A DNA stretch of 22,189 nucleotides from a virus: positions 1 to 22,189 of IMG/VR virus record IMGVR_UViG_3300030380_005716. One strand, written 5' to 3'. Position 1 is the stretch's first letter. Each line of letters opens with the position of its first letter. A model generated the notes under the pieces. That model searched no databases. It saw nothing but the letters and a program-made list of their open reading frames with translations, and had not been told where the DNA came from. Shown piece after piece: positions 1 through 22,189 of this stretch. Made by a program: the position numbers and the translations under genes.

Positions 1-2195
1 AATAATCTAGAAGGAACTTCCCTGGCAACGTCATCAGAGGATGCCTGTAATAATGAAACAGGAACTGTAATATCTAAAGTCTTATAAGAATATGTTGTTC
101 CATATACCATCTGTAATCTCTGGAGGTCATATTCATACTCGTTTCCATACTTTACTTGTGTATCAGTATATTCATTAGTGCTGGGGATATCAGGAGATGC
201 AAAATAAGTGCTCGCCATCTTAGAAGTGTCTCCTGGTTTGCTTTTGTTTACAATATCCAGGAGCGCCTCTGTGTCGGAAAAATGTTTGTTCTCAATACGG
301 TCAGTATAAGATAACATTTCTTTACGGGATTCTCTCCTGGCAAACTGCAAAAGTCTGTCTAAATTTCTTGAAATCATACCTCCAGCAACATCACCGGAAA
401 TACCCTCTTTACCAAAAGTACTGTAGACTAAATCTGAAACTCCAGTGAAACGAGAAACATCTAGAAATTGACTAAATCTTTTTTGTCTTAGGACAATATC
501 ACTACTTTTTGAAACAAGACTATGATTCTCGGCAGTAGAAATAGCATCCGTAGTGATAGTGTACGTCTCGGTTCTATCTAAAAATGTTGCTTTTTGCGCC
601 TTGTCTAAGATATATGAAGAAAGCCTGTTCTGGTTTATGGTTTCTACTATTTTACCTGTCTCTCCTGATAGCGTGCTTACCTCTATATAATAGGGCATCA
701 AAGGCTCATTAAAGTCATATGCGGTCAAAAAACTTAAGGATTCCTCAGGAAATTTTGCTCTCTTATACAAATCTCCCAATTCTTTGCGTTTACCATCGTC
801 TATCCGATTACCTAATATATCCATATAGCTTTTGAAATATGTTGGTAAAGAACTTCGAGCAATATCTAAAAGTTGCGGAGAAACATTCCCACTCAAAGTA
901 GAAAGATTATCATACTTTTGATAGGCTCGATTACCCCTTGTTGCGTTTCCTATCCAGCCATTAGGAACTTTCTGGTTGTCTTTTATATCAAAGTTAATGG
1001 TCCCCATAAACGTGTAAAAATTAATAAGATTATTTTCTTCCGCATCCTCATAAAAATCAGATGCTTCGAGGCAAGGTTCATAGCGATTATAAACAGGTTT
1101 AACTATACCATAGTCACTCCCGGCTAGGTCACTCATATTTTCTACTTGAAGATATTGCGCACTCTGACCATCGACCACAAATGGTGTCTCTACCGAGGAG
1201 CCATAATAATTGGAAATAATCGGAGCAACTACATTATCGTCTGAAATTATCACTTGAAGGCGGCGAGCAAGACTTATCCCTAGCTGCTCTTGCACCGCAC
1301 GAATCAATAAGTTAATATTTGACTGACGCTGGTCTTCATCGACTTCAATACTAAGCAACATTTGATAGACAGTTCGAAGAGCTTGTCCCAAAGTCCGAGG
1401 GGATATATAAGGCTCTGGGCGAGGCTCTGGCGGAGGATTGTTCTGGTTATAGAAAGTCGCTACAGTGTCTGGTGTAAGTAAGCCGCCGCTACCTTCCCTC
1501 AAAACTCTCCAAAAAGGTCTATTATTATTTGCTGCAATTAAATCTGGGATTGTCCTGGTGTTTAAGCCGTCAATAATACCTATTAGTCTCGATATTTCTG
1601 CCCTTAGTCCGGTGGGTGCCTCATCGCCAAGTTGAGCCATCTGGTTCATCAGTTCCACTTGCCGACTAGTGAGTTGTCTTACCAGGTCTTGCAAGGTAAT
1701 AATCCTATTTCTTTCGCCCCAATAAGGAAGATTGTTTAATCCTTGTTCCATTTGCGGTAAAGATAGCTCAATATTTTGAGGCGTTATTTCACCTAAGTAA
1801 ATAAGGTCGCCATCTACAGTAAGGGCATTCAAAGCGAAATCGTGTAGTTCTCTGGGGTAATTAACTTCTGTTTCACCCAACGTGCGTACATAAGGTTTTT
1901 CAGTTTCGGGGCGGGTATTCTCCATTGAATACACCCACTCATTAAATTCTGCAAGATTAGGGGCGCTGTACTCTTTGAGGACGGTACCGGGGATGGTGTC
2001 GCCGAAGCCCCCAAGTGACCACTGTACCACAAATTTATTTGTTTCACCAGGAATAGGAGCTACTCGAACTTGAGGCATTGTTTCTATACTTCTAACTTGG
2101 GTTCCTAAAAGACCTCTATAATATCTCATTATGGGGTCCCATTGTGAAACTGGAGTATGAAAAGACAATCTTCGTGTATTAAATAAACCGCCCAT
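1..2195 (-). CDS. Unrecognised phage structural protein, C-terminus cut by the window edge
   Basis: The frame opens at an ATG directly abutting the stop of the preceding gene and stays open for 731 codons to the left edge, so the C-terminus is missing. I do not recognise a named family. Residues about 165-215 look like amphipathic, possibly coiled-coil helix (LVRQLTSRQVELMNQMAQL, then EISRLIGIIDGL). A Pro-rich linker follows at about 253-262 (NPPPEPRPEP), then a helical stretch at about 268-312. The last 50 residues (VKYGNEYEYDLQRLQMVYG and onward) look like the strands of a fibronectin-III-like or similar beta sandwich, which might continue beyond the edge; this is a weak inference. There is no signal peptide or membrane segment. 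A good ribosome site (GGAGGG, 9 bases upstream) supports the start. Its position as the last visible gene of a baseplate operon suggests a virion component; the exact role is unknown. Confidence 0.85.
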   Translation of the reverse strand, partial: MGGLFNTRRLSFHTPVSQWDPIMRYYRGLLGTQVRSIETMPQVRVAPIPGETNKFVVQWSLGGFGDTIPGTVLKEYSAPNLAEFNEWVYSMENTRPETEKPYVRTLGETEVNYPRELHDFALNALTVDGDLIYLGEITPQNIELSLPQMEQGLNNLPYWGERNRIITLQDLVRQLTSRQVELMNQMAQLGDEAPTGLRAEISRLIGIIDGLNTRTIPDLIAANNNRPFWRVLREGSGGLLTPDTVATFYNQNNPPPEPRPEPYISPRTLGQALRTVYQMLLSIEVDEDQRQSNINLLIRAVQEQLGISLARRLQVIISDDNVVAPIISNYYGSSVETPFVVDGQSAQYLQVENMSDLAGSDYGIVKPVYNRYEPCLEASDFYEDAEENNLINFYTFMGTINFDIKDNQKVPNGWIGNATRGNRAYQKYDNLSTLSGNVSPQLLDIARSSLPTYFKSYMDILGNRIDDGKRKELGDLYKRAKFPEESLSFLTAYDFNEPLMPYYIEVSTLSGETGKIVETINQNRLSSYILDKAQKATFLDRTETYTITTDAISTAENHSLVSKSSDIVLRQKRFSQFLDVSRFTGVSDLVYSTFGKEGISGDVAGGMISRNLDRLLQFARRESRKEMLSYTDRIENKHFSDTEALLDIVNKSKPGDTSKMASTYFASPDIPSTNEYTDTQVKYGNEYEYDLQRLQMVYGTTYSYKTLDITVPVSLLQASSDDVAREVPSRL

Positions 2196-5100
2196 TTACC
2201 TGTACCCTCCGGAATTTATATCTCTTGGTGTCAAGGAACTTAGACCTGGGTCCGTATTCGAGGCAATACCCAAACCAACCGCCCCTCCTAAGGAGCCTGG
2301 TGATAAAATTTGGGGATTTTCTTCAGGAGGAGACTTAGGTGGGTTTCTCGGGGGTGGTATTTTGTCATCTGGTTCATCACGTTGCAAGAAAAAGTACTTA
2401 TTATAAGTAGTGAGAACTAGCATTGATTTTTCTGCAAAAAAGTCTTCCACAACTGTATCTGCCTCTAGGGCTTGGGCAGTCTTAGGGTCTAACAAGGACC
2501 TCATCTCTTCGGATGATTTAAGCCTTACTCGACACAACAATTTCAAAGAGTCGTCGTCTTGTTGAACAACCTCAGATAAAATCTGAGGAGTCAGAGGCTG
2601 CCACACCGGAATAGCTGTCTTATATTCTAAATTAAGGTCTTTTGTTTGGTCGAGTTCGAAGCCGTTATAAATTTCTCGAATACTTTCTGGGTCGTTGTTC
2701 AAATTTCCATATCGACTAAGATATTCGACCACCGCAATATTTTTATAATTCATCCAAAAAGTAATAAATTTAGCATAAACTTTAGCTGGGTCACGGGTAA
2801 GAGGATAAGTATCGTTCTGAGGGACTTCTCGGGTCTCATAGCAAGATATCAAATCTTCTCTTTCTCCAGAATCCTTGTCTTGAAGTTCTGGTCTAACTGC
2901 ATCGAAGCTTGTTAAATTTGGAGCTTCGCCTAAATCTTTAACCTTATCAGATGCAGCCAAAACAATAGCACTCTTAGTTTGGTTCGGCAAATCCCCAAAG
3001 AAATCTTCCACTGACCGTACAGCGTTATCCGAAGTTATCCCCAAAGTGGTTGCTAATTTAGTTAGAGAGTTGAAAACCCTATCTTGATATGAAACATCAA
3101 AAATAGGCTCGGGGTCTACAAAAATCTCTCCGAATATTGCGAATGGAAGCTTTATAGGAGTATTGGATTTGTTTCTTTCTCGCATTGTCTTATTTTGATT
3201 AGTGGCTTCAATTTTATTTCGGTCGTAATTTTGAGATATAGTCACATCAATTGAATCTCTGTATGCTTTTTCTGTTACTCCTTCATCACTTATTGCAAGA
3301 GGACCGCCCATAATATCGGGGATTACTGGTGGAGTTTCTGACACATATACAAATGGTCCAGCACTGCTCAGCGTCAAGGTATAGTCAGTTCTTGAAACTG
3401 TAGGTGGAAATTCTCCCCTTTGCACTGAGGGTGCTTCATAAACTTTTGTCTCTCCCACTTCAATATCCGTAGAATAATAGGTAGATAAATTTTCTAATAC
3501 TTCCGCAAATAAATTAACATTAGGAGATGCACTTGGTTGTGGATTGTTAACAGAATTAAACATAGTGTTGAGGTAGTGGTTCTGAAAATGTAACTTACCG
3601 ATATCCGCAAACATCACAGCATACTGGTTAATATCATAAGCTGCTCTATTCCCAGTACGAGAGGCATAGTCTGGCTGAGTAATATGTCTATCAAAAGGGC
3701 GTCGAGGAGTCTGAATAATTGCAGGAGTAAAATACTGGGTCGCAGAACTCAAATAGGGCTCTGGTATTTGATTATAATCATACATCCCCTCTGTTATACT
3801 TTGAAAATATTTTCTAAACTCATCTTCAACTCTTTCCTGATACTTTTCTATTGATAACGAATTGAGCCCGGCTCTTTTTTCTAACCCCTTATCTTGGAAA
3901 ATAAAATCATTTCCATAATTAAAAGTTTCGCCACGGGTAAATGTGTTTGAAAACCACATCTCCGCAGTTTTTATAGGAATAGAACTATTAGAGTATCCCG
4001 TACTTTCAAATAAATTTGGCTGATAATTAGTCAATTCTCCAAAAGGGTCATTGGGGAATATCTCTGTCAATTTTCCAATAAAAAACCCAATCACTAACCC
4101 AATCAAATCATCCAAATCCAAAAGAGAACGAGGGTCTACATTATTGAGTTCGAATTGTCTCTGAAAATAAGGAACTATTGAGCCCTCCACAAGACCCGCC
4201 TCTTTTAAGCTAACTAACGCTTGAAGCTCTCTATCAACACTGGCAAGAATCTCGTTCAATACATCTGACACAAACTGACGTCGGTCGCCTACAAAAGTCT
4301 CAATATCATTGAGGCGCACATTTATTTTAGTAGTCTGGTAGTTAAATAAATCTCGGTCATTCCTTACTATTCCTCCTTGATATCCTACTGACGTAGGTTG
4401 AGACAAGGTTATTGTATCATAAATTTGATTGATGTCGGAGCGATACTCTCGGAATAGATTGATAAGTCGGCGAACATATTCAGGAGCATTATCAAAAACT
4501 GTAATATGAGAGCCATATTGAAACTCTCCGTTTTCCTGATTACTGTTGTCATCAACATTAATAAAGGAACCAGTAAGACCCGCCTTTTCTCTTTTCTTTC
4601 CGAAAATGTCCTCTCCCTCATAAAATATAATCTTTGAAGTGCTCATCTCTTCTGCACCAGGGTTGCGAATATTATTTTCTTGGAAAACTTTTACTGCACG
4701 AGGATTGTTCAAATATTTTATAGGAAAGGTTTTATCTGGACCTAAAACTACAGTTCTCGCATCTGTACCAAGATTATTTCCTAGATTTTGAGCAACTCGT
4801 TCTACTCTTCTTCTTTTCATAATTACTGATAATACTCTGGACCTAGGGGACATGTCCAGTAACCCTGTTCCCTGTATAAGCTGGTTAGAAGAGTATTTGT
4901 TTAAATACAAGTAAGGAAAGTAGCTATTTTTAGCTAAGAAACTGCGTATATCAAAAGCAAAAGTATATCGCACGTTCCCAGACATATCCCTTGACAAATA
5001 AAAATCACTGAAGAAGTTGTCATCTTGAATAATATTTTTAGCCCCTTGTCCCCCAAACAAATTAGACGCAAAAATATCGCCATAAAACAAATCATATATC

Positions 5101-6146
5101 TTGGTAAATCTAGTATTTATTTCTTGTTCTAACCCAATATTGAACGTTTGAAAGATATCTCCTTCTTTGGCTCGGGTTTCAAGATTTAGTATTTCAGCGT
5201 TTGCTGCAAAATCTGGTACAAACAAATACTTTTCAGATAATGGGTTTTTATTATCTCTTTCTACTATTTCTCTTCTATTTTCTCCTCTAGCTCCTGCATC
5301 TCCAAGCATGGGAAAATCTTGGCGTGAAATAGGCGGAAACAATGTTCTGACCCCTCGAACGTTCGCTACCTCTATTTTGGACATTCCTGTACTCAAAGCT
5401 TGAATTTCGTCGTTGGGCGGAACTTCAAGTCCTGGTTGGTCTGGTATAGAAGGGACATATAGGAAAGCATAAAAAGTAAGCTGCTCTAGGTTCACCTGGT
5501 TGGGTACTAACAAATTGGGCAACACAGAACTTAATGATATTTGAATAGGAGCCAGCGTGTAGGGCTCTAAATCTGTAGATGAACCTCTCACATAACGGGG
5601 TCGGGCAAGGTCATTCGCATTTGGTCCTCTTGCTGCTGGGTTCAGAGGTAGTAAACTCTCCAAATTAACATCGTATACGATTGTGTTTAATGGAACCTCG
5701 GTCATCCTTGAGGCTCGACTCATAGAAGGAGCATTTATTTGCGGTGCTTCGGGCGAAAACAGACTATCAACAACCCTATCATAGGTTACATAAGGACCAA
5801 AAGGAGTAACATCAAAAAAATTAACGTACAATTTAGTCTTTAAATCGGTGTCCATTTGGCGTATAAATCTGTCTTCCGGCATAAAGAGACCCGCATCGCC
5901 GAGGTCTATGTATTCATTAAGACGTTGTGATACGAAGTCATTAACCTGAGCACATCTGGGATTAGTGGCTACCAAAATACGCAAGCGCAATCCTTGGAGT
6001 GCTTCTAGGGGATTCTCTCCTCTTTGTGCGGTCTGTTCGACTGTTGTTTGAAGCGTGACTATTCTATCGTTGTTTAGATTATCTCGGTCCTGATTTAGAA
6101 CAGCCGAGTTGATAGATATTTTCTTAATAAAGGATAAACTTGACAT
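2196..6146 (-). CDS. Unrecognised 1316-residue phage structural protein
   Basis: A complete 1316-residue frame running from ATG to TAA with a near-consensus ribosome site. I do not recognise the family. There is no signal peptide, transmembrane segment or catalytic motif that I can point to. The composition (many Asn, Asp, Tyr, Phe, Arg and short beta-prone stretches) is typical of virion proteins. Visible landmarks: a basic patch VIMKRRRVERVAQNLGNN at about residues 440-460; a short hydrophobic, mostly helical stretch LIGLVIGFFIGKLTEIF near residue 690, which looks like a buried core helix rather than a membrane span; a Pro-rich linker at about 1260-1279 (KIPPPRNPPKSPPEENPQ); and a Gly/Ser-rich tail of about 37 residues. 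The tail could be a flexible tether. The gene sits directly after the 313-residue gene and directly before the left partial gene, with zero bases between at both junctions. From context it is a baseplate- or fibre-associated virion protein, but a non-virion role cannot be excluded. Confidence 0.85.
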   Translation of the reverse strand: MSSLSFIKKISINSAVLNQDRDNLNNDRIVTLQTTVEQTAQRGENPLEALQGLRLRILVATNPRCAQVNDFVSQRLNEYIDLGDAGLFMPEDRFIRQMDTDLKTKLYVNFFDVTPFGPYVTYDRVVDSLFSPEAPQINAPSMSRASRMTEVPLNTIVYDVNLESLLPLNPAARGPNANDLARPRYVRGSSTDLEPYTLAPIQISLSSVLPNLLVPNQVNLEQLTFYAFLYVPSIPDQPGLEVPPNDEIQALSTGMSKIEVANVRGVRTLFPPISRQDFPMLGDAGARGENRREIVERDNKNPLSEKYLFVPDFAANAEILNLETRAKEGDIFQTFNIGLEQEINTRFTKIYDLFYGDIFASNLFGGQGAKNIIQDDNFFSDFYLSRDMSGNVRYTFAFDIRSFLAKNSYFPYLYLNKYSSNQLIQGTGLLDMSPRSRVLSVIMKRRRVERVAQNLGNNLGTDARTVVLGPDKTFPIKYLNNPRAVKVFQENNIRNPGAEEMSTSKIIFYEGEDIFGKKREKAGLTGSFINVDDNSNQENGEFQYGSHITVFDNAPEYVRRLINLFREYRSDINQIYDTITLSQPTSVGYQGGIVRNDRDLFNYQTTKINVRLNDIETFVGDRRQFVSDVLNEILASVDRELQALVSLKEAGLVEGSIVPYFQRQFELNNVDPRSLLDLDDLIGLVIGFFIGKLTEIFPNDPFGELTNYQPNLFESTGYSNSSIPIKTAEMWFSNTFTRGETFNYGNDFIFQDKGLEKRAGLNSLSIEKYQERVEDEFRKYFQSITEGMYDYNQIPEPYLSSATQYFTPAIIQTPRRPFDRHITQPDYASRTGNRAAYDINQYAVMFADIGKLHFQNHYLNTMFNSVNNPQPSASPNVNLFAEVLENLSTYYSTDIEVGETKVYEAPSVQRGEFPPTVSRTDYTLTLSSAGPFVYVSETPPVIPDIMGGPLAISDEGVTEKAYRDSIDVTISQNYDRNKIEATNQNKTMRERNKSNTPIKLPFAIFGEIFVDPEPIFDVSYQDRVFNSLTKLATTLGITSDNAVRSVEDFFGDLPNQTKSAIVLAASDKVKDLGEAPNLTSFDAVRPELQDKDSGEREDLISCYETREVPQNDTYPLTRDPAKVYAKFITFWMNYKNIAVVEYLSRYGNLNNDPESIREIYNGFELDQTKDLNLEYKTAIPVWQPLTPQILSEVVQQDDDSLKLLCRVRLKSSEEMRSLLDPKTAQALEADTVVEDFFAEKSMLVLTTYNKYFFLQRDEPDDKIPPPRNPPKSPPEENPQILSPGSLGGAVGLGIASNTDPGLSSLTPRDINSGGYR
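2205..2210 (-). promoter_or_regulatory. Ribosome binding site inside the end of the upstream gene
   Basis: On the minus strand this reads GGAGGG, 9 bases before the ATG at 2195. It overlaps the last codons (Gly-Gly-Tyr-Arg-stop) of the 1316-residue gene. With the TAAATG junction, it implies that translation of the two genes is coupled. Confidence 0.7.
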
Positions 6147-7088
6147 TTATACGTCACCCCCTTGAGGTGCATCCTGTGCAATTCCAAATGAAGCCACAGC
6201 GCAAATATCTCCGCTTACAGTGGTAGTCCTTTGTTTATAGAAAGTTGAACTGGGCACAATAGCATCCGCCTGTATTTCTAAATCCACTGCCAAATCAAAA
6301 TAAAACTCCACATACTCATTCGTCAATACTGGAAAGTTAAACTCAATATCTCTATTGGTTCCCGCAAGAGTACTCAATAGATTATACCTGTTTCTCTGAC
6401 TTTGTAAAATAGAGTTGTTCAAAGAGTTCTCATTGATGAATTTAAGTCTTTGTAACATCTCTTCAGTGGTGCCATCTGTTTTTTGCCTTCGAGATATTTT
6501 GAAAACCTCAATATCATAATTTCCGTTGGCTTTAAATATGGTATTAAGTTCTTGAACATCTAATAATAATTTTTGATTCTTTACAAGACGCCAAAGGTTT
6601 CCTTCTTGTGGTTCAGCAACATCTTGATACTCTATCTCTAGCGAAGCAGACACTCTAGGTACAGCCCCCTGTAAGAAATATTTTACGGGTCCTTCGAGTC
6701 GAGAGTCGCTACCTTGAAGCACGGAAATACTCCAAGCTGGTGCATTATCAGACCATGGTGAATTACTACCTAGAAACCTATAGTATGTAGAATTAGCATC
6801 TGTTGCTTGGTCAAACGGATTAAATACCTCAAACCCTTCTTCAGGTCCTCGACTTTCTGAGGTTTGGTGTTTCGCAGATAGACCAAAACGAGGTGTACGA
6901 TTTTTAATACGGTCTACAATTTTATTTTGATTTTCTGTTATACCGCCATATTGACCATCGTAGATAATTCCATCGTCAAAAAAGGCATAAAACTGAGGTT
7001 TGAACTTACCCTCAGAATATTTTTGCTTACCGTAGGTTGTAAGTTCTACTTCTAGCACTTGCTCTTTTTGATTCAAAAATTTAACCAT
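6147..7088 (-). CDS. Conserved phage structural protein, 313 residues
   Basis: A complete 313-residue frame. Residues 8-70 carry a distinctive pattern (KEQVLEVELTTYGKQ at 8-22, KFKPQFYAFFDDGIIYDGQY at 28-47, then ENQNKIVDRIKNRTPRFG). I recall this pattern from proteins of other large uncultured phages, where the protein also sits near a giant LamG-containing gene; this is memory, not a search. No enzymatic motif, signal peptide or membrane segment is visible. The middle and C-terminal part (about 140-290) alternates beta-prone stretches with runs such as VLTNEYVEFYFDLAVDLEIQ, suggesting beta-sandwich folding. The gene starts 10 bases after the giant's stop, with GAGGAA about 13 bases upstream, and its stop codon abuts the next start. 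The likely role is a small connector or adaptor virion protein working with its giant neighbour; this is inferred only from position. Confidence 0.85.
   Translation of the reverse strand: MVKFLNQKEQVLEVELTTYGKQKYSEGKFKPQFYAFFDDGIIYDGQYGGITENQNKIVDRIKNRTPRFGLSAKHQTSESRGPEEGFEVFNPFDQATDANSTYYRFLGSNSPWSDNAPAWSISVLQGSDSRLEGPVKYFLQGAVPRVSASLEIEYQDVAEPQEGNLWRLVKNQKLLLDVQELNTIFKANGNYDIEVFKISRRQKTDGTTEEMLQRLKFINENSLNNSILQSQRNRYNLLSTLAGTNRDIEFNFPVLTNEYVEFYFDLAVDLEIQADAIVPSSTFYKQRTTTVSGDICAVASFGIAQDAPQGGDV
6154..6163 (-). promoter_or_regulatory. Near-consensus ribosome binding site for the 1316-residue gene
   Basis: The minus strand reads AAGGGGGTGA, matching 9 of 10 positions of the full anti-Shine-Dalgarno complement AAGGAGGTGA, 7 bases before the ATG at 6146. 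It lies within the codons for the final Gln-Gly-Gly-Asp of the upstream 313-residue protein. It is the strongest such site in the window and suggests a bacterial host with the ordinary 16S 3' end. Confidence 0.8.
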
Positions 7089-7098
7089 TGTACTTTAA

Positions 7099-13000: not shown

Positions 13001-16000
13001 GGAGAGAACTTAGCAGAAAATGGAAACAACTGCTGGATTATTTCATTCATTGAGGCATCAAGCCACTTATAATAATCTACATATTTTTCAAAATCAATAG
13101 TACTGTTCTTGACCCTGCGGAAGTAAAGCTCCCGCATTTTTTCCATTCGCTTGTAATCAATTCTATATTTATTTACCGGTTCGCCAATAAGATTATTGAA
13201 CTCATCTATAGACGCAAACAATTGTAATATCTGAGCAGATACACTGTTATAGAGACTTTTCTCTACAGCAAAATAATAACTCTGCGGTCTTATTGAAAAT
13301 CCAAATATAGTATCATCGACGTCATTAGCCTTCACCATATCATTTGAGTCAACATATTCTGGCTTTTGTAAGGCTGATGTATACACATATTGTTTTCTGG
13401 AAGGGTTATCACCCGATGTAAACCCTATACCTCTGCCTGTGTGTTGTCGAAGATTAAGAGAACTAAACAATGCTCCCTGATAAGTGGAGGGATAATCTCC
13501 GGAGTTAGAGCCAGATGAATAATCATATACCCCAATAAGACCTGAGGAGTTTGCAGTTGGGTTTTCTTCAAAATCCCAGTTTAGTGCCAAGGTCTGTATT
13601 TTGGGAATAAATACATTAGGTCCTACTGTCTGGTATTCAAATGTGTTTTGGTAAGGGTTTTTCCTACCAAAAGATTCGGCTGACTGAGCGTGAGAATCAA
13701 TTTCTTCTCCCGTAATGTAATCAGTCCAATATTGTACTCGACCAATTCTTACATCGGATTTGGTGAGCACTGTTCCATCAAAGTTATTTCGATGGGCTCC
13801 AGCATAAATCCTTTTTGCACTGTTAAGAACAGCAGCACCTGCCGCATATGAAGAAGAAACTTGAAAAGAATTTCTTTTGATACCAGAGTCAAAATTAGAA
13901 CCATAAAGCTCAATAACATATTGTAGAGATGCCGGTGGTGATGGTCCAACACCACCCTTTGTCATAGGGTAGTATCGAGGTCGAACACTCAGGGCAACAT
14001 TCCACTTTTGATTATCATAGACGTCTTGATAAATGCTGCTGGTCAATAATGTTTGACCTGCTCTGTCTTTTACAATAAAGAAGGCGTCGGGACATTCGCT
14101 AACTGGGGTTGTTTTTTTCGAAAATGGCGAAGGAGATTTTACGGCATAAACTTGAAGACCAAAGTCGGCTGCCAAGGATGCCCAAGTTAGCGTAGTAGAG
14201 GTTGGACTATTATCACTTGGAGTATGAAAACCCATAAGCGACGAAGAAACAACAACAGGTAAATCATAATCTAGTATTTGAGTTTCTTGCTTGTCAGGGA
14301 AATATATTTGGGAAGCAAGTGTAAACGCATATTCATCTAATTCTGCTCCACTTGTTGATGGTACTATTAGACCAAAAGAATTAGCTGTAGAACCGCTATA
14401 AAATTGAAATACGCTGGCTTCGGCATCCGAAAAATGACGCAATCCTGAAAAGTCCAAAAACTTCTTTGGGCTGGATTGTGTATAGAAACTATCCTGTAAC
14501 TTGAAATCTAGATTATTAGAATAGGTGTTTAGTGCAATAATGCTGTCACCTACTCCCATACATCGGATGAGATTGCGGATTGATTTAGCATTACCTTTAC
14601 TCTTTAGGATACCGTTAAGGTTGTTATATATGTTTTTATACAACATATTCTTAATAGATACTAACCTTTGTTCAATATCTATTTGCTCATCTCGTTGACG
14701 AAATTGTGCTAAAGTTCCAATATTTTCAAACAGTTCGGGAGCTTCTATACCAAAATTTTCTAACAGTTTATCATTGTAAGGAAATTCATTAATATCAGTC
14801 GAAGTTGTCCCTGAAACATAGTTGTTTTGTTTTAATTTAGGAATGGCTGTCAATTGATTATGGATAGTGTCAAAATAACTACCGAGGATTTGTGTTAGAC
14901 TTTGTAATTCTTTGTTTGTGTTTTCATCTTCTTCTCGTACCCAGTGAGGCACAGAGTTAATGAGCCGTGAATTGTTTCCACCATCATATGTGCTACCACT
15001 AAGAGTGAGTACATATTTAGAGTTAATATAAAGATTATTGTTGTTTCGGATGATAGGGTCGCCCTCTTCAACAACTGAAGTAATATTCAAGGAGTTTATA
15101 GCCGAACCTGTAGACCGACACTTACTGTCATAACCTACAAATTGTCCATTGGAAACTCTCCCTGAATAATCAAGCACTACACTATCTGTGCTAGCTGTTA
15201 GCGTAATACCTTCATTGAAAGGCATATAAACACCGAGGGCAACATTAGCTGAAAACTTGTCAGTGCCGCCATCAACATTGGTGAACCAGTTTCTACCTAT
15301 TTCTTCGGGCGTTCTTTTTGTCTTCCAAAAACGAAATTCATCTATAGAGCCAGATAATTTTCCGTAACCTTCTTTTAGGTTGACATCGCCATCGTTGTAG
15401 CGGAGAGCACCCAAGTTAGCAATCATTGCACCTGTCACTTCATTGATTGCAGCGCCAGCACCTAGGTCTAATCCTGTTTCGATACATACTCCATCCACAT
15501 AGAAATCGACAGTAGGATTACCAGTTGCAGGAGCGGTGTCAAAAGCAAAAGCATAATTTCTAAACTTACCATCGCATATTGTCAGACCACCGCCAGATGG
15601 AACTGCTAATTTAGTACACCCTACTGAGGAAGAAACAAGAGTAACAAAAAACCTATCCTCTGCACCGTCATCTATTTGAATTCTTAGCTGTCCTGATGTT
15701 GCTCCAGTTGTTAAACCATTATGGAGGTCAATAATGATTTGATTTTTTGATTCCACACTCGAATCTATGACTGCATCTTTTTTGAGAAAAAATTCTACAG
15801 TAGTTCCCGCAGCACCACCAAACTCAAGATTTGATGTACGCTTATCAGTAGTAGAATATTGGGTATTTAAATGAGGACCGCCCTTTATTTGAACATATTG
15901 TGGCAGCGATGACGAAAAGAACCCAGACGCATGACTAGTGTTTCCCAGGGTGCCATAATCATTACCAATACTGATAAATCCAGTACTAGTAGGGTATTTT

Positions 16001-16323
16001 TCATTGAAAATAAATTGTTCTAGCGGATTTAGACTGTTGTAAAATTCTGTCTTCTCTAAACTTGAACCATCATAAGGATAAAATCCAGCAATGTAATCAA
16101 AAGCATTGTCATAATATTTTTCGGCTGACCCAAAACGCACAAACTGGGCTGGATTTCCGTAATTAACATTTGGCAGAAACTCATCACGTTTCTTAAGAGC
16201 AGCCTTTAGATGAGGTTCAGACTCAATACCATCCCCAAGAGCACCTGGGGCTGAATCTTTTAAATACTTGCTAATAACTGTAGCTTGTTTATTGTTTCTG
16301 AATAAATCGCCGTATTTTCCCAT
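7099..16323 (-). CDS. Giant LamG-containing tail/baseplate protein, 3074 residues
   Basis: A single uninterrupted 3074-residue frame (roughly 335 kDa). Segments in order: an N-terminal region with FGSAEKYY at 64-71 and YPYDGS at 82-87; a LamG/concanavalin-A-like domain at about 160-350, ending in the characteristic LSGSIDEFRFWKTKRTPEEI; a helical region at about 455-600 with LKSKGNAKSIRNLIRCMGVG (573-592), resembling the KGT-type motif of phage tail protein I; a second, divergent LamG-like region at about 663-880 (NQKWNVALSV; VRIGRVQYWTDYITGEEIDS); and a helical block at about 1035-1128 ending ESHVLERPKYRHKFP. Conserved islands follow: LQGPFGKTHVGG (1358-1369), IIVNQFGAPGD (1524-1534), LPFRNMDVR (1556-1564), WFVFKVKRR (about 2958-2966) and YNWPYDYFSLVELAKLD (about 3023-3039). 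I recall similar islands in giant proteins of uncultured marine phages. LamG domains usually bind carbohydrate or protein ligands, so host-surface recognition or fibre anchoring is plausible. It starts 3 bases after the 504-residue gene; its ribosome site is weak (GAAGAAG). Confidence 0.9.
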   Translation of the reverse strand: MGKYGDLFRNNKQATVISKYLKDSAPGALGDGIESEPHLKAALKKRDEFLPNVNYGNPAQFVRFGSAEKYYDNAFDYIAGFYPYDGSSLEKTEFYNSLNPLEQFIFNEKYPTSTGFISIGNDYGTLGNTSHASGFFSSSLPQYVQIKGGPHLNTQYSTTDKRTSNLEFGGAAGTTVEFFLKKDAVIDSSVESKNQIIIDLHNGLTTGATSGQLRIQIDDGAEDRFFVTLVSSSVGCTKLAVPSGGGLTICDGKFRNYAFAFDTAPATGNPTVDFYVDGVCIETGLDLGAGAAINEVTGAMIANLGALRYNDGDVNLKEGYGKLSGSIDEFRFWKTKRTPEEIGRNWFTNVDGGTDKFSANVALGVYMPFNEGITLTASTDSVVLDYSGRVSNGQFVGYDSKCRSTGSAINSLNITSVVEEGDPIIRNNNNLYINSKYVLTLSGSTYDGGNNSRLINSVPHWVREEDENTNKELQSLTQILGSYFDTIHNQLTAIPKLKQNNYVSGTTSTDINEFPYNDKLLENFGIEAPELFENIGTLAQFRQRDEQIDIEQRLVSIKNMLYKNIYNNLNGILKSKGNAKSIRNLIRCMGVGDSIIALNTYSNNLDFKLQDSFYTQSSPKKFLDFSGLRHFSDAEASVFQFYSGSTANSFGLIVPSTSGAELDEYAFTLASQIYFPDKQETQILDYDLPVVVSSSLMGFHTPSDNSPTSTTLTWASLAADFGLQVYAVKSPSPFSKKTTPVSECPDAFFIVKDRAGQTLLTSSIYQDVYDNQKWNVALSVRPRYYPMTKGGVGPSPPASLQYVIELYGSNFDSGIKRNSFQVSSSYAAGAAVLNSAKRIYAGAHRNNFDGTVLTKSDVRIGRVQYWTDYITGEEIDSHAQSAESFGRKNPYQNTFEYQTVGPNVFIPKIQTLALNWDFEENPTANSSGLIGVYDYSSGSNSGDYPSTYQGALFSSLNLRQHTGRGIGFTSGDNPSRKQYVYTSALQKPEYVDSNDMVKANDVDDTIFGFSIRPQSYYFAVEKSLYNSVSAQILQLFASIDEFNNLIGEPVNKYRIDYKRMEKMRELYFRRVKNSTIDFEKYVDYYKWLDASMNEIIQQLFPFSAKFSPNVRKLIESHVLERPKYRHKFPITRNKLQDPEDPVGGDGEISKTAVRGQICGAGQWKFTHAPLPDSVGNLDQAKNCNWWKTRAERTNAAFGTPDDVDTTRTAVLNALKGELYRTYKVTVNAETLESTIHSATKVVCIDGKLSMPYVGGVNQGVNKKRNIPNITFDRFESLEDCSDVVDPNAKRKVAFRVTTPDGQIYIGDQMAPFTAISGTLIEGGYNAFLNDTAGAGLKGISLNNLHEDSIYPYRQSVPLQGPFGKTHVGGFLSRHVNPMKTTKKNRAEKYKMSIVAAVGTINTLVTEDIPKGQYLRGLASKSPINIQNIRTFTGSSSIVSGSVPAGNFVHNYEVVQGSDRLLTNMDHAFNPSFYTSTAPTAFVSSPDRVSSATKIPVKDGFFGPTGSADYAAPRQRSGRRTNQTIIVNQFGAPGDRYSSKQQFRDVSSDQLSPNIPLPFRNMDVRPAFINQLSKWMGPGGYETTSSTVPAIHKTLRNRTRRIEIGSTIGATQTLVTGTFNDNAFVTRPVPSADRPQWYSYLSGADNQTLYNSYVARQGRFPENITILTPDTAGTNPIAPGAESQQMYFNMAKRFLWWNNRDFAPWKQISAGETPEGSFYWKKNTYELEARVNTAGNTTSKVAGFGTRLSAIPYLGTDTQAAASIPHYFFRSYREAPVTSRYKPLLHQIVTPIGTPSKTLKDSRRDFVTTSIHNSYGNVLMGYANRELNYYLQGNYKFNYNKVKRPYEIIRDRFNQGDRTLRTDVSGLSIFQSMFYYETIHPQEVFTYLSASRARLNFANNFWVNDKAVSSLDISSFTDYEDLNNETNILTYNRQIGRISSSFITSQGYKVKKRDQKPMSSTDPNYPAASALGSGSIWPLDSYLYSDSVPFIKGIVKGATPVLFADAATMASGEMLMTHFGSVDDSATNPAYAGGTAMYTRSNINSVQYVYSVPTQIEDAVDSKIYAQPLSPGGPYSRPSWSAAINRVVVDGVDKLTFTTPQYPFFNTYEDYISDARVKAKDHTILPEFRVSQLIENYKDSGNPFSLVKETLEITGANTNNFNGNTTDFYNRFAITDGIEFLPNFFTYDKDSPDYKALDYPRHFGLTSKAILQLLPYDGFYPANRIMEIATLFSSSYGPNGEYVGASGSTTPRWRSILKPFYSPGIILNSIKSGMAVDHPIRIDTRNIEGFIKRDVHAKEPLRGPLTGALDTGLATYVDGEVPGDRRHWEQSQPFDFSDANVDRVFWGNRLPFETIMNPMVVLDSNENDALVNADINTFLRVPASGAISPKNLDDTLYKKSISNFLANVPEFFLKEKTPRNGNPGYMTKFVSKFGEDSLKSGGRLNIVRPEANTAYMMEIGILKTDKFNLYSNPFAFGTPTSTGSLGWGALGATKVPATNEWPMHRGEHAPFTPPYYYGPSVVRYLFIPNGDKEEYTLEEILYNTRNETYVQYLNTSSSYFDFADGTFLADTGLTKTGLTPEYQWNRAWQNRMDIDASIVVNNKFPTAQAGENRISGDPNSWVIMPKWECPILDFPSANDGAGTVLYDFGAPSVQPGDFNTETYGMWHGYGSMPQEGKGIYLYIKDIGLKETDRVTIGGPDGSSGGVTGSVHNVRKVPKFVYENITSTKPSMTLGSLARLCGFDEEDIMGETFDYKKAKRLGELAENGEKTVSEAVLAMPFYLDAKGVPRVMTIRAPSTLLGPQIKQFRKKFINYSLPPSLGKQMMSLVPPKYPDVPDIINPFGDDDLDRLLQVQGKVTMRSPVVYLLEHKVGISRQDLADIWQGIMPSLTKNMKMSVSSVDHYMPGDKVSQPPTQFPEILQKQIELNLPAEKRDGHPRWDLLDVPVNGDQDGFIPEIKWFVFKVKRRGIPDYDQMILREVFGRDYAQLENVVGAEVAATLPQHFKDNYAQGVYKLETSLEDPTYNWPYDYFSLVELAKLDIEAGFRPELETELQESSFSNVGFDNNNNQENPDEE

Positions 16324-16326
16324 GAG

Positions 16327-17841
16327 TTATTTTTCTTCTTCAGTAATTCTAAAAATAAAGCTAGCCGGTTGTTCAAGGTATTTATTGTTCAATAAATACG
16401 CTATCTTAATACCATATGAATAGCCCTGCTCTAAACAAGAAGTATCAAACTTAAAGTAGCTCCCACTTACGTCATAAGACAAAAGAGTACCATCTTTGTT
16501 TGTACTTCCTGTTTGATAAGCAACTACTTCTAAGTCGTCTATCACTCGATAAATACGATAGTAAGCATTATTTATGATAGTTGGTTCTATAAAACTGTTT
16601 GCTTTTGTATAAATATTAGGTTCCCAATATTCAGAACGAGTAAAGACCCTAAACGTTGGCTCTTCTCCTTGGCGATATTCGGGCTTAAGGTTGGTAATAC
16701 TAGTGACATATTCTTGCTCATAAAGATTAGTTGAAGTATTAAAAGACAACGGGTTAAAAGAACCTGTAAAATACTCGACCCTAGATGCACCAGAACCTGT
16801 GAACCAAACATCGAATAATATTGGGTTTGAACTGGAACAAGCAAAAGAAGCAGTGTATACCCCTTGTACAAAAGAATTGTTTTCTTTTAGTAATCTGGCT
16901 TTTGCAAACAAAGCAGCATTGCCACTTGATTTATCTTTTATCTGCAAGGGCAAGTCTACAGGACCAGAGGAACCAGTATAAATAGCCACCGATAATGAAT
17001 TGCTACTCAATCCTGGAATATTCTTTAGCTCGCCCCTAATGTTGTTATACAGATAAAGTGTATTGATATTGTCTGCTGATGTTGCTACGCTACTGGATAT
17101 ATAAAAATTGCCTCTATTATCCTTACGGGATGAGTCCCAGATTGCTTCTATAGTTGGTCTCTTATGAAAAAATTCAGATGTTCTAGAAAAGAACATTTTA
17201 GTAAATAATGTATCTGAACCTGAAACTACCGATGGTTGCATCCGAACCAACAATCCATAGTTAGGAGTACTATCAAGCCATTTGTACACTATTTGAGAAA
17301 TATCTAACTGCATGTCTTCTAAGCCTGTAGCAAAATAATAGCTGGTTTTAGAATTAGCGTCATTACGAATTGCAGAGCCTGTTGTTGTCCACGGGGTTCC
17401 TTCCGCTGCATTCACCCAGTTAGAAGCCCCAAGGTCTGTATAATTGTCCATATCTAACCCACGACCCTCATTCCACGGCTGATTAAGCATACAAATATCC
17501 AAACTATAGCTCAATGGAGTACTATTTCCGTGCGGAGCATTATAAAGATTTAACATATACTTTACGCTTGCAGTATCTGAAGGTAACGAACTTGCACTTA
17601 TATCTGCCTGAAGACTATCAATGGGAAACTGAATTATAAACCTACTCTGTTCAGCGTTGGCTGCGTTTGCAGATGTAGGGATTGAAGTATTTAAGGATGC
17701 CGATGTCTGTCCGTGAATTACAAATGTCTCAAGAATATCAGCAGCACCCATATTAGCATTAGTGCCACGATTAAGTAGGTTTTCCTTAAACGCATTTGTT
17801 ATAGTGTTATCTTTAGTAGCATAGTATTTTTTTATTGCCAT
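16327..17841 (-). CDS. DNRLRE-like beta-domain phage structural protein, 504 residues
   Basis: A complete 504-residue frame. Residues about 8-235 follow the DNRLRE-type pattern known from bacterial surface proteins: a start like TKDNTITNAFKENLLNRGTN (9-28), a strand FIIQFPIDSL (68-77), paired tryptophans in NQPWNEGRG and NWVNAAEGTPW, then DISQIVYKWLDSTPNYGLLVR (180-200) and an ending MFFSRTSEFFHKRPTIEAIW (216-235). The C-terminal half (about 245-504) is beta-prone and may hold Ig-like domains (GVYTASFACSS; YFTGSFNPLSF). There is no enzymatic motif and no signal peptide, as expected for a virion part assembled in the cytoplasm. It starts one base after the gp6 stop, with AGGAG 12 bases upstream. 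Lying between the J-type wedge protein and the giant, it occupies the place of gpI in P2-like order, so it may join the giant to the wedge. The domain call is a fold-pattern inference. Confidence 0.85.
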   Translation of the reverse strand: MAIKKYYATKDNTITNAFKENLLNRGTNANMGAADILETFVIHGQTSASLNTSIPTSANAANAEQSRFIIQFPIDSLQADISASSLPSDTASVKYMLNLYNAPHGNSTPLSYSLDICMLNQPWNEGRGLDMDNYTDLGASNWVNAAEGTPWTTTGSAIRNDANSKTSYYFATGLEDMQLDISQIVYKWLDSTPNYGLLVRMQPSVVSGSDTLFTKMFFSRTSEFFHKRPTIEAIWDSSRKDNRGNFYISSSVATSADNINTLYLYNNIRGELKNIPGLSSNSLSVAIYTGSSGPVDLPLQIKDKSSGNAALFAKARLLKENNSFVQGVYTASFACSSSNPILFDVWFTGSGASRVEYFTGSFNPLSFNTSTNLYEQEYVTSITNLKPEYRQGEEPTFRVFTRSEYWEPNIYTKANSFIEPTIINNAYYRIYRVIDDLEVVAYQTGSTNKDGTLLSYDVSGSYFKFDTSCLEQGYSYGIKIAYLLNNKYLEQPASFIFRITEEEK

Positions 17842-17842
17842 T

Positions 17843-19636
17843 TTATCTTACAACTCCTGTGACGTCCACATCAGGTAAAAGAACTTCAGCTACTGAATTT
17901 TCCGGAATTTTTAGAAAACGACCATCATCTGACATATTCTCTAGTACATTAAATTCGACAGGGCTGTATCCTGAAGTTGCTTTGTTTATTATCTCTACGT
18001 TAGTAGTATCTACTACTCCAGGAACATCGTTCAAAAGCTTGTATATCTCGGAAATATATACAGCTTCACCAATATTGAACTTTACATTCAGGTAATCATT
18101 TTTTAGCTTTTCAACACAAGACTGGAGGATTTCGTATCTATTAGCACTCAATTCGGGTAATACCTCAAAATTAATTCCAATATTTATTATTTGACCATCT
18201 AAAATATCTATGGTATCATTTATCATTTTATATTGTATTAGCCATTCCTTTAAGTTTTCTTTTAGTATACTGTTGGGAACCACAAAATTTCCATTGATAT
18301 TCTCTGACAGAACATACAAATTTAAGTTTCTTTTTACAGAATCTTTATCTCTTACTACATTAACTCTTTTGATTTTGCCAAATTTTGATGGCATTCTATA
18401 TGATAAGTTAATGTAATCATTTCGAGTGACGGCTCGGTTTTGAGCGGCTTGACTACCGAATGCTTGAACTCTTACCTCTTCAGGTGTCAGAGGTTCCGTA
18501 TCTCCAAGAATAGGAGTTTCATTCTCTACTTCCAAAGACGCAATAACGTCTGCAATTAAAGCCTGAGATAGAGAAGCTTGATTTTGAAATCTATAAGTTG
18601 GATTGACTACAGAATTTACAGCACCCACAGCAGCGTTTACTGTTTCAGATGTATTAGCTGTGTACTCTACTGACAGGATTGTATTAACAGGGACAACTCC
18701 AAACTTATCAGACTCAATTAATTTAGTAGGGTCAAACGTTTCATCAGTAACATAATTTCTACCAGTAATATCTAAAGTTACGCTAGACGGGTCAGCAATA
18801 GGATTAGTAGTTATATTCTCAGCGGAACCATAACCAAACTGAAGATAAGTATCATCTGCAACATCTCTTTCAATCACAAATCTTCGAGGAGCAGGTACTG
18901 TCCTAATTATATAAGGGACGGCTGCTCGATTATCATCTGTGTTTACAAGTTCTTTAAATACTATATCCTGACTGAGATGAGAAACTTCAAAATATTCATT
19001 ACCTTGGCTGTCAACAACTGAAGTAATATCTGTAATGTTTGACTGGTCTAATTTGAGTCTCAAAAATCTTTGATAATTTCCTACTGTTATAGATTGCACA
19101 AATCTCTCGCCAGACACCACTTGCCCAAAAGCCTTAACAGCAAAAAAGGTAGGATTACCTGTTGTGCTATCAACTCGTGCCACGGTTACTTTATTGTTAG
19201 AGTCACTGAAATCTACATTTTCTACCAAAGTAAAAGTAGCACCACTGCTCGACCCGAGAACAGTACCACCTTCAAGAATTGGCAAGTAATTTAAGTCTGG
19301 TCCTCTAGTGTTAGTATTAGCTGGAACAATAATATAAAAAGAGCACTGCCCTGTAGAACGAGCCGCACCAGGATATCGGTATCCTACACTCTCAGCCAGT
19401 CGGACTATATTTCCAAATTCAATAGCGCTGTCCAAAAAGGATTCATTGGTTTGATAGTCGGCATAAAATGAAAGCTGGTCTCCGACATAAGCAACCAAAT
19501 CCATCATCAAGGAACCAAAAGAGGCTTCATTAAAATCCTTAAATGTTGTTGGGTAATATCTTTTTGCGTAATTTACCAAATCCTCTTTGATAGATTCGAA
19601 ATCACGACTTGTATAATTGATTGGTCTTTTTGCCAT
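17843..19636 (-). CDS. Baseplate wedge protein, T4 gp6 / P2 J type (baseplate J-like)
   Basis: A complete 597-residue frame. The N-terminus has the gp6/J layout: NYTSRDFESIKEDL (7-20), then FNEASFGSLMMDLVAYVGDQ (35-54), LSFYADYQTNESFLDSA (55-71) and a GYRYPGAARST segment (85-95). The conserved baseplate-J core comes later: QAAQNRAVTRNDYINLSYR (396-414) followed by GKIKRVNVVRD (420-430). Length compares with about 660 residues for T4 gp6. In the known family this protein forms dimers that build the iris-like ring of baseplate wedges around the hub and drive the change in shape at sheath contraction. It follows the gp25-type gene, the same adjacency as W-J in P2 and other contractile systems. 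A Shine-Dalgarno-rich 15-base gap precedes the ATG. The assignment to the family is firm; the T4 name is by analogy. Confidence 0.93.
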   Translation of the reverse strand: MAKRPINYTSRDFESIKEDLVNYAKRYYPTTFKDFNEASFGSLMMDLVAYVGDQLSFYADYQTNESFLDSAIEFGNIVRLAESVGYRYPGAARSTGQCSFYIIVPANTNTRGPDLNYLPILEGGTVLGSSSGATFTLVENVDFSDSNNKVTVARVDSTTGNPTFFAVKAFGQVVSGERFVQSITVGNYQRFLRLKLDQSNITDITSVVDSQGNEYFEVSHLSQDIVFKELVNTDDNRAAVPYIIRTVPAPRRFVIERDVADDTYLQFGYGSAENITTNPIADPSSVTLDITGRNYVTDETFDPTKLIESDKFGVVPVNTILSVEYTANTSETVNAAVGAVNSVVNPTYRFQNQASLSQALIADVIASLEVENETPILGDTEPLTPEEVRVQAFGSQAAQNRAVTRNDYINLSYRMPSKFGKIKRVNVVRDKDSVKRNLNLYVLSENINGNFVVPNSILKENLKEWLIQYKMINDTIDILDGQIINIGINFEVLPELSANRYEILQSCVEKLKNDYLNVKFNIGEAVYISEIYKLLNDVPGVVDTTNVEIINKATSGYSPVEFNVLENMSDDGRFLKIPENSVAEVLLPDVDVTGVVR

Positions 19637-19637
19637 A

Positions 19638-19649
19638 TTCCTACCGCCT
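19638..19649 (-). promoter_or_regulatory. Ribosome binding site of the gp6/J-type gene
   Basis: The minus strand reads AGGCGGTAGGAA just before the start codon, in the only 15-base gap of the operon. It offers two candidate sites: AGGCGG at a usual distance (7 bases) and GGA very close to the ATG. It supports the ATG at 19636. Confidence 0.6.
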
Positions 19650-19651
19650 TT

Positions 19652-20056
19652 TTAAATAGTGTTTGATACAGTTATTTTTAGCTCATCGGAACCATTATAG
19701 GGAAGTATGTTATATTTTATCACTACCACTATTTCATTAAGACCTATTGTTACGTCTTCAGTACTAGTAATAAAATCAACAGATTCTAAGTTGATAACTG
19801 GCAAATAGATGCTGGTTTGTTCTGCTATTCTTTCAGCAACTTGATTGAAAGTGTCATTGTTTATGTTCTCAAACAAAAAATTGTAAATACCTACCCCAAA
19901 CTCGGGCAACATTACTCTCTCTCCAGGAGAAGTCAACACTAAGTTCTTGAAATTCTGTTTTATAGCTTCAAGAATAGTTTTGTTTAATTTGTATGGACCG
20001 TCTTGACTGTCGTAAGCCAAAGGTAGTCCTACAGATATGCCTTGTAATTTGCTCAT
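19652..20056 (-). CDS. Baseplate wedge protein, T4 gp25 / P2 W family
   Basis: A complete 134-residue frame, close to the 132 residues of T4 gp25. The family signature is clear: GLPLAYDSQDGPYKLNKT at 10-27, then LVLTSPGERVMLPEFGVGIY at 39-58 with the invariant-looking GERV and P-E-FG, followed by FLFENINNDTFNQVAERIAEQ and two long beta strands near the C-terminus (VTIGLNEIVVVIKYNI). In contractile phages, R-type pyocins and type VI systems this protein sits at the wedge next to the gp6/J dimer and starts sheath assembly. The gene starts one base after the stop of the 694-residue gene (TAATATG) and is followed by gp6/J, as in other contractile modules. The ribosome site AGGT is weak, so coupling to upstream translation is likely. 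Confidence 0.95.
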   Translation of the reverse strand: MSKLQGISVGLPLAYDSQDGPYKLNKTILEAIKQNFKNLVLTSPGERVMLPEFGVGIYNFLFENINNDTFNQVAERIAEQTSIYLPVINLESVDFITSTEDVTIGLNEIVVVIKYNILPYNGSDELKITVSNTI

Positions 20057-20057
20057 A

Positions 20058-22142
20058 TTATATGTACCTGCTCAAAATATTTATTTCACCTTGTATTCTA
20101 GCGATATTTATTGCTATTCTGTCTTCCTCAGCTTGAATGTCCCCTTCATTGACAAACCCCACTGCCCTGGCAGCATCAGCCAATGTAGGAGCAGACAAGA
20201 GAGCACAGACCCTTTGCATTGTATCATAAATCTTACTCTTAAGAATCCCAACGCTAACAGCCTCAGAAGTCGTTGGTTCTTCTCCTCGACCAGTATACCC
20301 CTGGTCATTTTCATCATCCCAGAGTGCACTGACCGTATCGGCTGCACTGTAGCCAAGGCTTTCTTGAAAGAAATTATCTAACTGGTCTCTATCGTATGTA
20401 CATATATCACCAAGGGCAATAGTTATGTTTCTATTCCGATATTCGGCTCGCAAATTCGTAAATCTTAAATTTGCAGCTACCTTAATCTGATTAGCAATAC
20501 TCAACAAAGGTCCTCCCTCCCAGGCAGATTGATACCCCAGCCCTTCTTGATTGGCACCAGTTGCCGCCTTTTGAAGCAACGCATCCACTGTATCATAATA
20601 TTCTTGTGGTGCGTCCACTGGACTGAGAGAGTAATACCCTCCTCTTTTTGCGGCAAAATATAAATCTTCATAATCTCCAATGCCAAAATCTGGAGTTTCC
20701 TCTCTGTTTAGCTCTGTAATACCCCTTCTAAGATAAGCGACCCTTTCGCTCGCCTCTTCTCTTGAATAATATGTTCTTGGTGTTCCTTCGTAATCTGTTA
20801 TGGTTATTGGGAAATTTTCATAAAGGGAACTAAATCTACTAGATAGCGAGCCATTGACCGCAGTCAATATAGCATCATCAGCTTGGGCTGCCTGAGACTT
20901 TAATTGAAAATCAAGCTCTTTTATAGCAGTGGATAAGCCCGTCATATCCCAACTGATAATATAAGCTGCATAAAGTTGTGCCAATGGGAAGAGGTAAGCG
21001 CCGGCACGCCAAAATGTCGAATTACCCCCAAAGCCACCTTTGTTCCTAAGACCTTCAAACTCTTGCACTTTATCTGGTTGAGGGTCTTCAGTGGTATAAT
21101 ATTCTTCCATTCTCTCGCAATAACTTCTAACCAGGTTTATAAATCTTTCTCTACCATCTCCCTCAAATATAGACTTATTAGCGGATAAATATTCTGTTCC
21201 TTCGGCAATGTTATCCAGAACCCTGTATAGGACGCACCTTAATAATACTCTTAGGTTTTCTCGGGGAGTTCGGTTAGAATAAAATCTAAAATCTCTATTT
21301 AGGTTGCGAGAGGGGTCGGAATAGGCTTTTTCTATAATGTCAAAATTATCATATATAACCCCAATCAACTGTTTTTGGGAATACTCTTTTTCTAATTTTC
21401 TTAGTAAATAGTCAGACAATAAATATAAGGTGCCGTCGCTGCACCACTGTGGATATACTTGCAAAAGAGGTCCAGAGTTAAACATTAGTCGAACGATGCG
21501 AGCTTGAATTGATAAGACTATTGAAGATGCTACTTCTTCTTCTTGGGTGGTTACGCATTTGTCGTCCACCAAGTCAAAAGGAAACTTATTTACTGCCCGA
21601 ACAAAAGGTGGCAACCGACGTGGAGCTAGCGACGGGGCGGTGTAAAAACTCTCAATTGACTTTTCGTTGAGTCGATATGGGTTACCGAAAGTAAGTAAAT
21701 TTCTGTTTCTCTTAGGATAAGAGTCTCGTGGGTTATCGGGAGTTTGTTCAGGACCTCCAGCACCTTGTCCTGGTTCTGCCCAGGCATTTATATTCATTGC
21801 AAACTGGCTTCTAGTGTTTTTGGCTGCGCCATCCCCAGGGGTTATTAGAGTAGTCCCAGGGTCGGAATATGATAAGTTATCCATAAAAGAAGTATTAAGA
21901 ATAGAGTAATTCATCATAGGAACCTGTGTTTCAAATGTTCCAAATAGGTCTTCAGTGCTATCACGCCCACTCAAAGGGTCACTTGCTATAAGTGGTCCTT
22001 CATAATTGGTAGGAAAATATAACGGAGGGTCGCTTGAAAGGTCAACAATACTAAACCCTGTTCCGGCATTTTTTATTACCCTGTTTTCTCTTTGTTGTTC
22101 GTTTTCATTTACGCCACGGAACACCAAAGCTAATCTAGGCAT
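20058..22142 (-). CDS. Unrecognised phage structural protein of at least 694 residues, possibly cut at its N-terminus
   Basis: From the first in-window ATG the frame gives 694 residues ending in TAA. I do not recognise a family. The N-terminal 230 residues are Pro/Gly/Asn-rich with little obvious regular structure. From about residue 205 it becomes largely helical (VASSIVLSIQARIVRLMFNS; LYLLSDYLLRKLEKEY), with a long mostly helical body to the C-terminus, which ends in an amphipathic helix (EDRIAINIARIQGEINIL). No catalytic motif, signal peptide or membrane segment is visible. Upstream of this ATG I see no clear ribosome site within 15 bases, and the same frame stays open for 15 more codons to the right edge (about 22187), reading RNGRYWTEENRKNP before the Met. 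The true start may therefore lie outside the window. Position just before gp25 makes a tail or baseplate role likely. Confidence 0.8.
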   Translation of the reverse strand: MPRLALVFRGVNENEQQRENRVIKNAGTGFSIVDLSSDPPLYFPTNYEGPLIASDPLSGRDSTEDLFGTFETQVPMMNYSILNTSFMDNLSYSDPGTTLITPGDGAAKNTRSQFAMNINAWAEPGQGAGGPEQTPDNPRDSYPKRNRNLLTFGNPYRLNEKSIESFYTAPSLAPRRLPPFVRAVNKFPFDLVDDKCVTTQEEEVASSIVLSIQARIVRLMFNSGPLLQVYPQWCSDGTLYLLSDYLLRKLEKEYSQKQLIGVIYDNFDIIEKAYSDPSRNLNRDFRFYSNRTPRENLRVLLRCVLYRVLDNIAEGTEYLSANKSIFEGDGRERFINLVRSYCERMEEYYTTEDPQPDKVQEFEGLRNKGGFGGNSTFWRAGAYLFPLAQLYAAYIISWDMTGLSTAIKELDFQLKSQAAQADDAILTAVNGSLSSRFSSLYENFPITITDYEGTPRTYYSREEASERVAYLRRGITELNREETPDFGIGDYEDLYFAAKRGGYYSLSPVDAPQEYYDTVDALLQKAATGANQEGLGYQSAWEGGPLLSIANQIKVAANLRFTNLRAEYRNRNITIALGDICTYDRDQLDNFFQESLGYSAADTVSALWDDENDQGYTGRGEEPTTSEAVSVGILKSKIYDTMQRVCALLSAPTLADAARAVGFVNEGDIQAEEDRIAINIARIQGEINILSRYI

Positions 22143-22189
22143 TGGGTTTTTTCGATTTTCTTCGGTCCAATATCTACCGTTACGGCGGG

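Follow-up and report, generated by a model that had tools for sequence, protein, structure and literature searches.

Gene content of the window

The 22,189-base stretch of viral DNA analyzed here (the window) was taken from an IMG/VR virus fragment of 22,533 bp (IMGVR_UViG_3300030380_005716). The property under study is its lack of the tetramer GATC, which an earlier reading of the letters alone (the original prediction) had described as complete. The window carries eight large genes, all on the minus strand, and its features are listed below, with word counts given as observed/expected.

1..22189, no strand: DNA free of GATC and CGCG (GATC 0/61, CGCG 0/19, GGCC 3/37, CATG 13/42)
3..2195, minus strand: open reading frame of 731 amino acids that continues past the edge of the window and matches no family
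2196..6146, minus strand: open reading frame of 1316 amino acids, common to relatives, no family match; includes both codon examples (6057-6095 and 4098-4118)
6147..7088, minus strand: open reading frame of 313 amino acids, conserved in relatives
7099..16323, minus strand: open reading frame of 3074 amino acids, probably a tail/adhesin protein; its LamG-like match (Laminin_G_3) is weak and falls slightly short of the curated cut-off
16327..17841, minus strand: open reading frame of 504 amino acids, conserved beside gp6 in relatives
17843..19636, minus strand: baseplate wedge protein, T4 gp6-like, 597 amino acids (PHROG 219, E 1e-17), the phylogenetic marker
19652..20056, minus strand: baseplate wedge protein, gp25-like (PF04965, 6.7e-12; PHROG 261, 2e-18)
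20058..22142, minus strand: open reading frame of 694 amino acids, no family match

The record corresponds to the baseplate region in a large aquatic T4-like phage. The closest named relatives by gp6 were Microcystis phage Mel-JY01 (33% identity) and Flavobacterium phages (31%), and uncultured near relatives reached 58–65%. The large relatives have portal, sheath, tube and terminase proteins of the T4 kind, and their genomes also hold genes for PrkA, a phage GroEL and a polymerase of the Pol III alpha type. No near-identical record was present in the phage collection and no close relative was found via the 694 amino acid protein. Searching bacterial genome contigs with gp6 returned a single match, a 4.6-kb contig in a Flavobacteriales metagenome-assembled genome at 47% identity, which was uninformative on the host.

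GATC is absent and is avoided through silent codon choice

A script count found 0 GATC in the window and 0 in the full record around it. The third-order (maximal-order) Markov expectation for the window was 60.8 (z = -9.5), and no other of the 256 tetramers was as strongly depleted as GATC. Shuffling synonymous codons within genes (300 runs) gave an expectation of 72.2±6.2 sites with a minimum of 51 (z = -11.7); by codon phase the shuffle expected 45.4, 18.0 and 8.8 sites and none was observed in any of the three phases. The claim of complete absence in 22 kb was therefore borne out against both the Markov and the codon-shuffled expectation.

The codon examples offered in the original prediction were exact on re-check. 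The peptide NQDRDNLNNDRIV (6057-6095, minus strand) is written AAT CAG GAC CGA GAT AAT ... GAT AGA, with GAC before CGA and GAT before AAT and AGA, the Asp in the peptide DLDDLIG at 4098-4118 is written GAT ahead of TTG, and the Asp-Pro pairs across the whole window are all GAC-CCN. More generally, the Asp codon before C was GAC in 65 of 65 cases and never GAT, compared to 285 GAT and 116 GAC elsewhere. ATC codons were never preceded by G and TCN codons were never preceded by xGA. Dipeptides capable of forming GATC occurred at normal frequency (Asp-Leu 39 vs 37.6 expected, Asp-Pro 22 vs 25.4 expected). Because Asp before C is always GAC while the dipeptides that could form GATC show no depletion, selection against GATC acts on the DNA and spares the protein. 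When codon pairs encoding identical residues were compared with relatives, none of 123 GATC sites was kept in the window while AGCT was kept in 25 of 73; the 123 orthologous comparisons are related rows and not 123 independent events.

Other palindromes are banned along with GATC

The window was additionally depleted in words that the original prediction had not mentioned. CGCG was absent against 18.7 expected (Markov; 19-23 across Markov and shuffle), GGCC occurred 3 times vs 36.7 expected and CATG 13 times vs 42.2 expected (both Markov). A set of eight 6-bp palindromes, all of them depleted in independent relatives, occurred once in total in the window against about 19 expected. The proposed selection against GATC sites at the level of DNA is supported, but GATC is not the singled-out word, as CGCG, GGCC and 6-bp palindromes are also banned.

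Alignments of terminase, PhoH-like and PrkA proteins were used to look for contigs from other genome regions, and this yielded two that shared the profile of the window. G053, a 16.8-kb contig of the terminase/portal region, had GATC 0/46, CGCG 0/23 and GGCC 0/41, and G052, a 48.3-kb contig of the PrkA/GroEL region, had GATC 0/146, CGCG 0/70 and GGCC 3/124. CATG was partially depleted to a similar extent in all three (observed to expected ratios of 0.28 in G053, 0.40 in G052 and 0.31 in the window). The offset in G+C content between the regions (0.39 vs 0.43-0.44) resembled that within long relatives (e.g. 0.372 vs 0.428 in G012). Word profile and G+C offset together suggest that the window, G052 and G053 probably belong to one lineage. 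As these two contigs from other regions have the profile of the window and are free of GATC, the ban probably covers the genome. The 22.5-kb record is too short to show this by itself, and within that limit the two contigs agree with the expectation of near-zero GATC elsewhere in the genome. In the pooled contigs with this profile, a scan of 4-, 5- and 6-mers returned only palindromes among the passing words (GATC 0/262, CGCG 0/112, SAGCTS 0/35, CTCGAG 0/14, GGCC 6/203), so that what these GATC-free contigs ban are palindromes such as Type II enzymes recognize.

The list of banned words differs between lineages

GATC was present at normal frequency in nearly all near relatives, and its loss is therefore lineage-specific. 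CGCG behaved differently, its ban being common to most near relatives. It is absent from the window and essentially absent from a diverged clade of large phages (G003-G007, G010-G015 and G029-G031), with one observed against 1,172 expected in 15 contigs and 1.23 Mb. Mapped on the gp6 tree, absence of CGCG required three changes, e.g. one gain and two losses. The sole CGCG lies at position 87090 of G029 (L191) within a MoxR-like AAA gene; this gene shares 93-94% identity among G029, G012 and G052. Core 6-mers were avoided in the relatives as well (CTCGAG 0/74, CAGCTG 1/109, GAGCTC 1/66, CTGCAG 3/133 and GGCGCC 8/113, the last compared to 130/139 in comparison contigs).

Relatives with normal CGCG often banned another palindrome, for example TCGA (0/131 in G034) or ACGT (0/80 in G041), and G048 had GCGC 0/48 with CGCG reduced. 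Two contigs carried a second ban on top of CGCG, with CCGG at 0/210 in G030 and 0/168 in G031. The ban list consists of a clade-wide core (CGCG, strongly GGCC, and 6-mers such as CTCGAG, CAGCTG, GAGCTC and CTGCAG) and a lineage-specific part, which in the window is GATC. As a separate observation, G007 (L081-L084) was depleted in the non-palindromic word CTCAG on one strand (2/33).

A slot beside GroEL holds a D12 methylase or a Mom-like protein

Just upstream of the phage GroEL gene lies a slot encoding a D12-class adenine methylase in 12 non-redundant contigs and a Mom-like protein in 7. Clade contigs spanning the slot never carried both and never neither. Genes of the slot were located as follows.

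L453:8495-9415 (G052): Mom-like slot gene
L200:2531-3472 (G030): Mom-like slot gene
L211:11013-12032 (G031): Mom-like slot gene
L070:9467-10273 (G012): D12 slot gene

The D12 enzyme is related to DpnM and Dam. The G052 protein is assigned to the Mom family by its matches to PF25680 (6e-13) and PHROG 1384 (4e-20), the family of Mom of phage Mu; in G052 this gene stands outside the window, in the slot that D12 fills in other relatives, and its product is a predicted DNA modification protein. Modeling the structure of the Mom-like protein gave a mean pLDDT of 54, too poor for use. No D12 methylase was found in G052 or G053, which cover part of the genome, and no C5 DNA methylase in the clade contigs; only Mel-JY01 has one.

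GATC was near normal in 12 of 12 D12 contigs. GATC-free G052 carries Mom, and the other six Mom contigs had near-normal GATC. Slot content was rejected as a predictor of banned words, as only GGCC differed among 16 tests (34/396 in Mom contigs vs 223/745 in D12 contigs, p = 0.002). A ban on GGATCC was also considered as a mark of D12 loss; it held for G030 and G031 and failed for the other Mom contigs.

Additional gene content was noted in the relatives. A long run of sugar-nucleotide/glycosyltransferase-type genes occupies 63-81 kb of G012 (L073) in the structural region, with content strongly variable among relatives. Phage tmRNA genes were detected at L072:19062-19386 (tag ANDDFEMEMAA) and L202:4590-4912 (tag ANDDFQLAQAA), and a TubZ/FtsZ-like protein and ribosomal protein S21 are encoded near the capsid genes in G029 (1-31 kb, L187-L188).

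Probable restriction avoidance and its alternatives

The best explanation of these data, to which we give a probability of about 85%, is that Type II restriction sites have been purged, following a list that is particular to each lineage and mirrors the enzymes of the hosts. Host Type II restriction is favored because only palindromes are banned, removal is complete or nearly so, the changes are silent and the list varies between lineages. Mutations that break a site, mostly silent ones, would survive, newly arising sites would be removed again, and host Type II enzymes would set the list so that lineages differ in it. Restriction enzymes would then be the cause of the purge, and the hosts of this lineage would be expected to carry a GATC enzyme, either of the MboI/DpnII/Sau3AI type or of the DpnI type. 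Complete or nearly complete site elimination is reported for roughly one in ten genomes of prokaryotic viruses and concerns essentially orthodox Type II sites (PMC6286503). GATC was depleted in 46 of 46 surveyed phages whose hosts encode a Type IIM GATC enzyme (Rusinov et al. 2018, PMC6286503). The window phage resembles these cases in that palindromic Type II sites are (nearly) eliminated in a double-stranded DNA phage; it differs in that a diverged clade shares one absolute ban (CGCG) to which each lineage adds its own words. Microcystis phage Mel-JY01 (PP395634.1; L493-L495, L121), a distant T4-like relative, has GATC 0/348 genome-wide and bans other palindromes as well (CTAG 0/152, GGWCC 0/107, GAATTC 0/92, GATATC 0/60). 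Unlike the window its CGCG is normal (318/292). It also differs in having a C5 DNA methylase gene, together with a gene annotated as a DNA modification methylase. On the restriction explanation the window is an extreme case of a kind of escape that is already known.

Several points weigh against this explanation. Host and enzymes were known in the published cases, whereas for the window phage a host with cognate restriction enzymes is presumed. Only a fragment of the genome is represented by the record, which is tied to G052 and G053 by word profile and G+C offset and does not overlap them. The DNA-modifying genes of the phage group itself (D12 methylase or Mom-like) would be expected to ease the need to purge, and some relatives in the wider group are without any strict ban.

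A refinement of restriction-site purging, which we regard as possible but doubtful, is that D12 phages protect GATC by methylation while the lineage of the window purges GATC since its slot holds a Mom-like protein. The near-normal GATC of every D12 contig, the Mom gene in the sole GATC-free contig spanning the slot and the relatedness of D12 to DpnM and Dam are all consistent with this. Mom of phage Mu prefers A between C/G bases, and GATC or CGCG would not be covered. However, GATC is close to normal in the six remaining Mom contigs, the difference (1/7 vs 0/12 GATC-free) is not significant, and the slot lies outside the window. CAGCTG, an expected target of Mu Mom, is absent also from Mom-bearing G030 and G031, which argues against a simple division of labor. 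A GATC specificity of this D12 enzyme is presumed, and the D12 family includes other specificities (PMC4390886). The link between Mom and the GATC purge is only suggestive. A broader version, in which aquatic T4-like phages carry a heritable restriction barcode of core and lineage-specific palindromes coupled to an exchangeable D12/Mom slot, with sites either modified or purged and D12 loss having forced the GATC purge, is somewhat less probable still.

It is improbable that the ban is self-imposed, i.e. that the phage encodes a sequence-specific endonuclease directed against host DNA and has purged its own sites. The nearly absolute absence of CGCG over deeply diverged lineages (1/1172) would fit such an enzyme, and a 247 amino acid candidate nuclease with a D...ExK pattern resembling PD-(D/E)XK nucleases was identified in G029 (L191:5744-6487), G030 and G031, with a distant match in Prochlorococcus phage P-SSM2. 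About ten different words are banned per genome, however, and the list shifts between lineages, which one enzyme cannot explain. The 247 amino acid gene was not detected in G012, a CGCG-free contig that spans the corresponding region, and no ThaI-family (CGCG) enzyme was found in 14 records (contigs incomplete). A search of solved structures resembling the candidate returned no match.

Slightly less probable again is a cost of GATC as such, which was offered as an alternative in the original prediction; it could arise from processing of the Dam/MutH/SeqA type or from a host factor that binds GATC, and an effect of this sort has been proposed for T7. Phage T7, a lytic phage, shows a strong loss of GATC via silent changes, as seen in the window, and GATC is the most depleted tetramer here. 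The loss in the window differs from that in T7 in being complete and in being joined by other banned palindromes. A cost of GATC alone does not fit because CGCG, GGCC, CATG and several 6-mers that lack GATC are depleted too, and relatives are GATC-normal.

Chance, biased composition and artefacts of assembly or library can be set aside, as the Markov and shuffle tests gave no point in support, no shuffle fell below 51 GATC, and a library effect is unlikely because relatives from one metagenome (3300025141) ban different words (GCGC 0 in L131, ACGT 0 in L183, none in L047).

Implications

What the present case adds to the known phenomenon is scale and resolution, as an uncultured and diverged clade combines a near-absolute ban on one tetramer with a swappable list of others. 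Worth following are the CGCG ban across the clade, the lists that switch between lineages and the D12/Mom slot, and the finding that relatives hold either D12 or Mom beside GroEL is new to us. The slot offers a concrete place to test the choice between modifying and purging sites. Ban lists could bin fragments of one phage, as with the three contigs here, and could help to link metagenomic phages to hosts. They could also read out the restriction enzymes of hosts that are not yet known.

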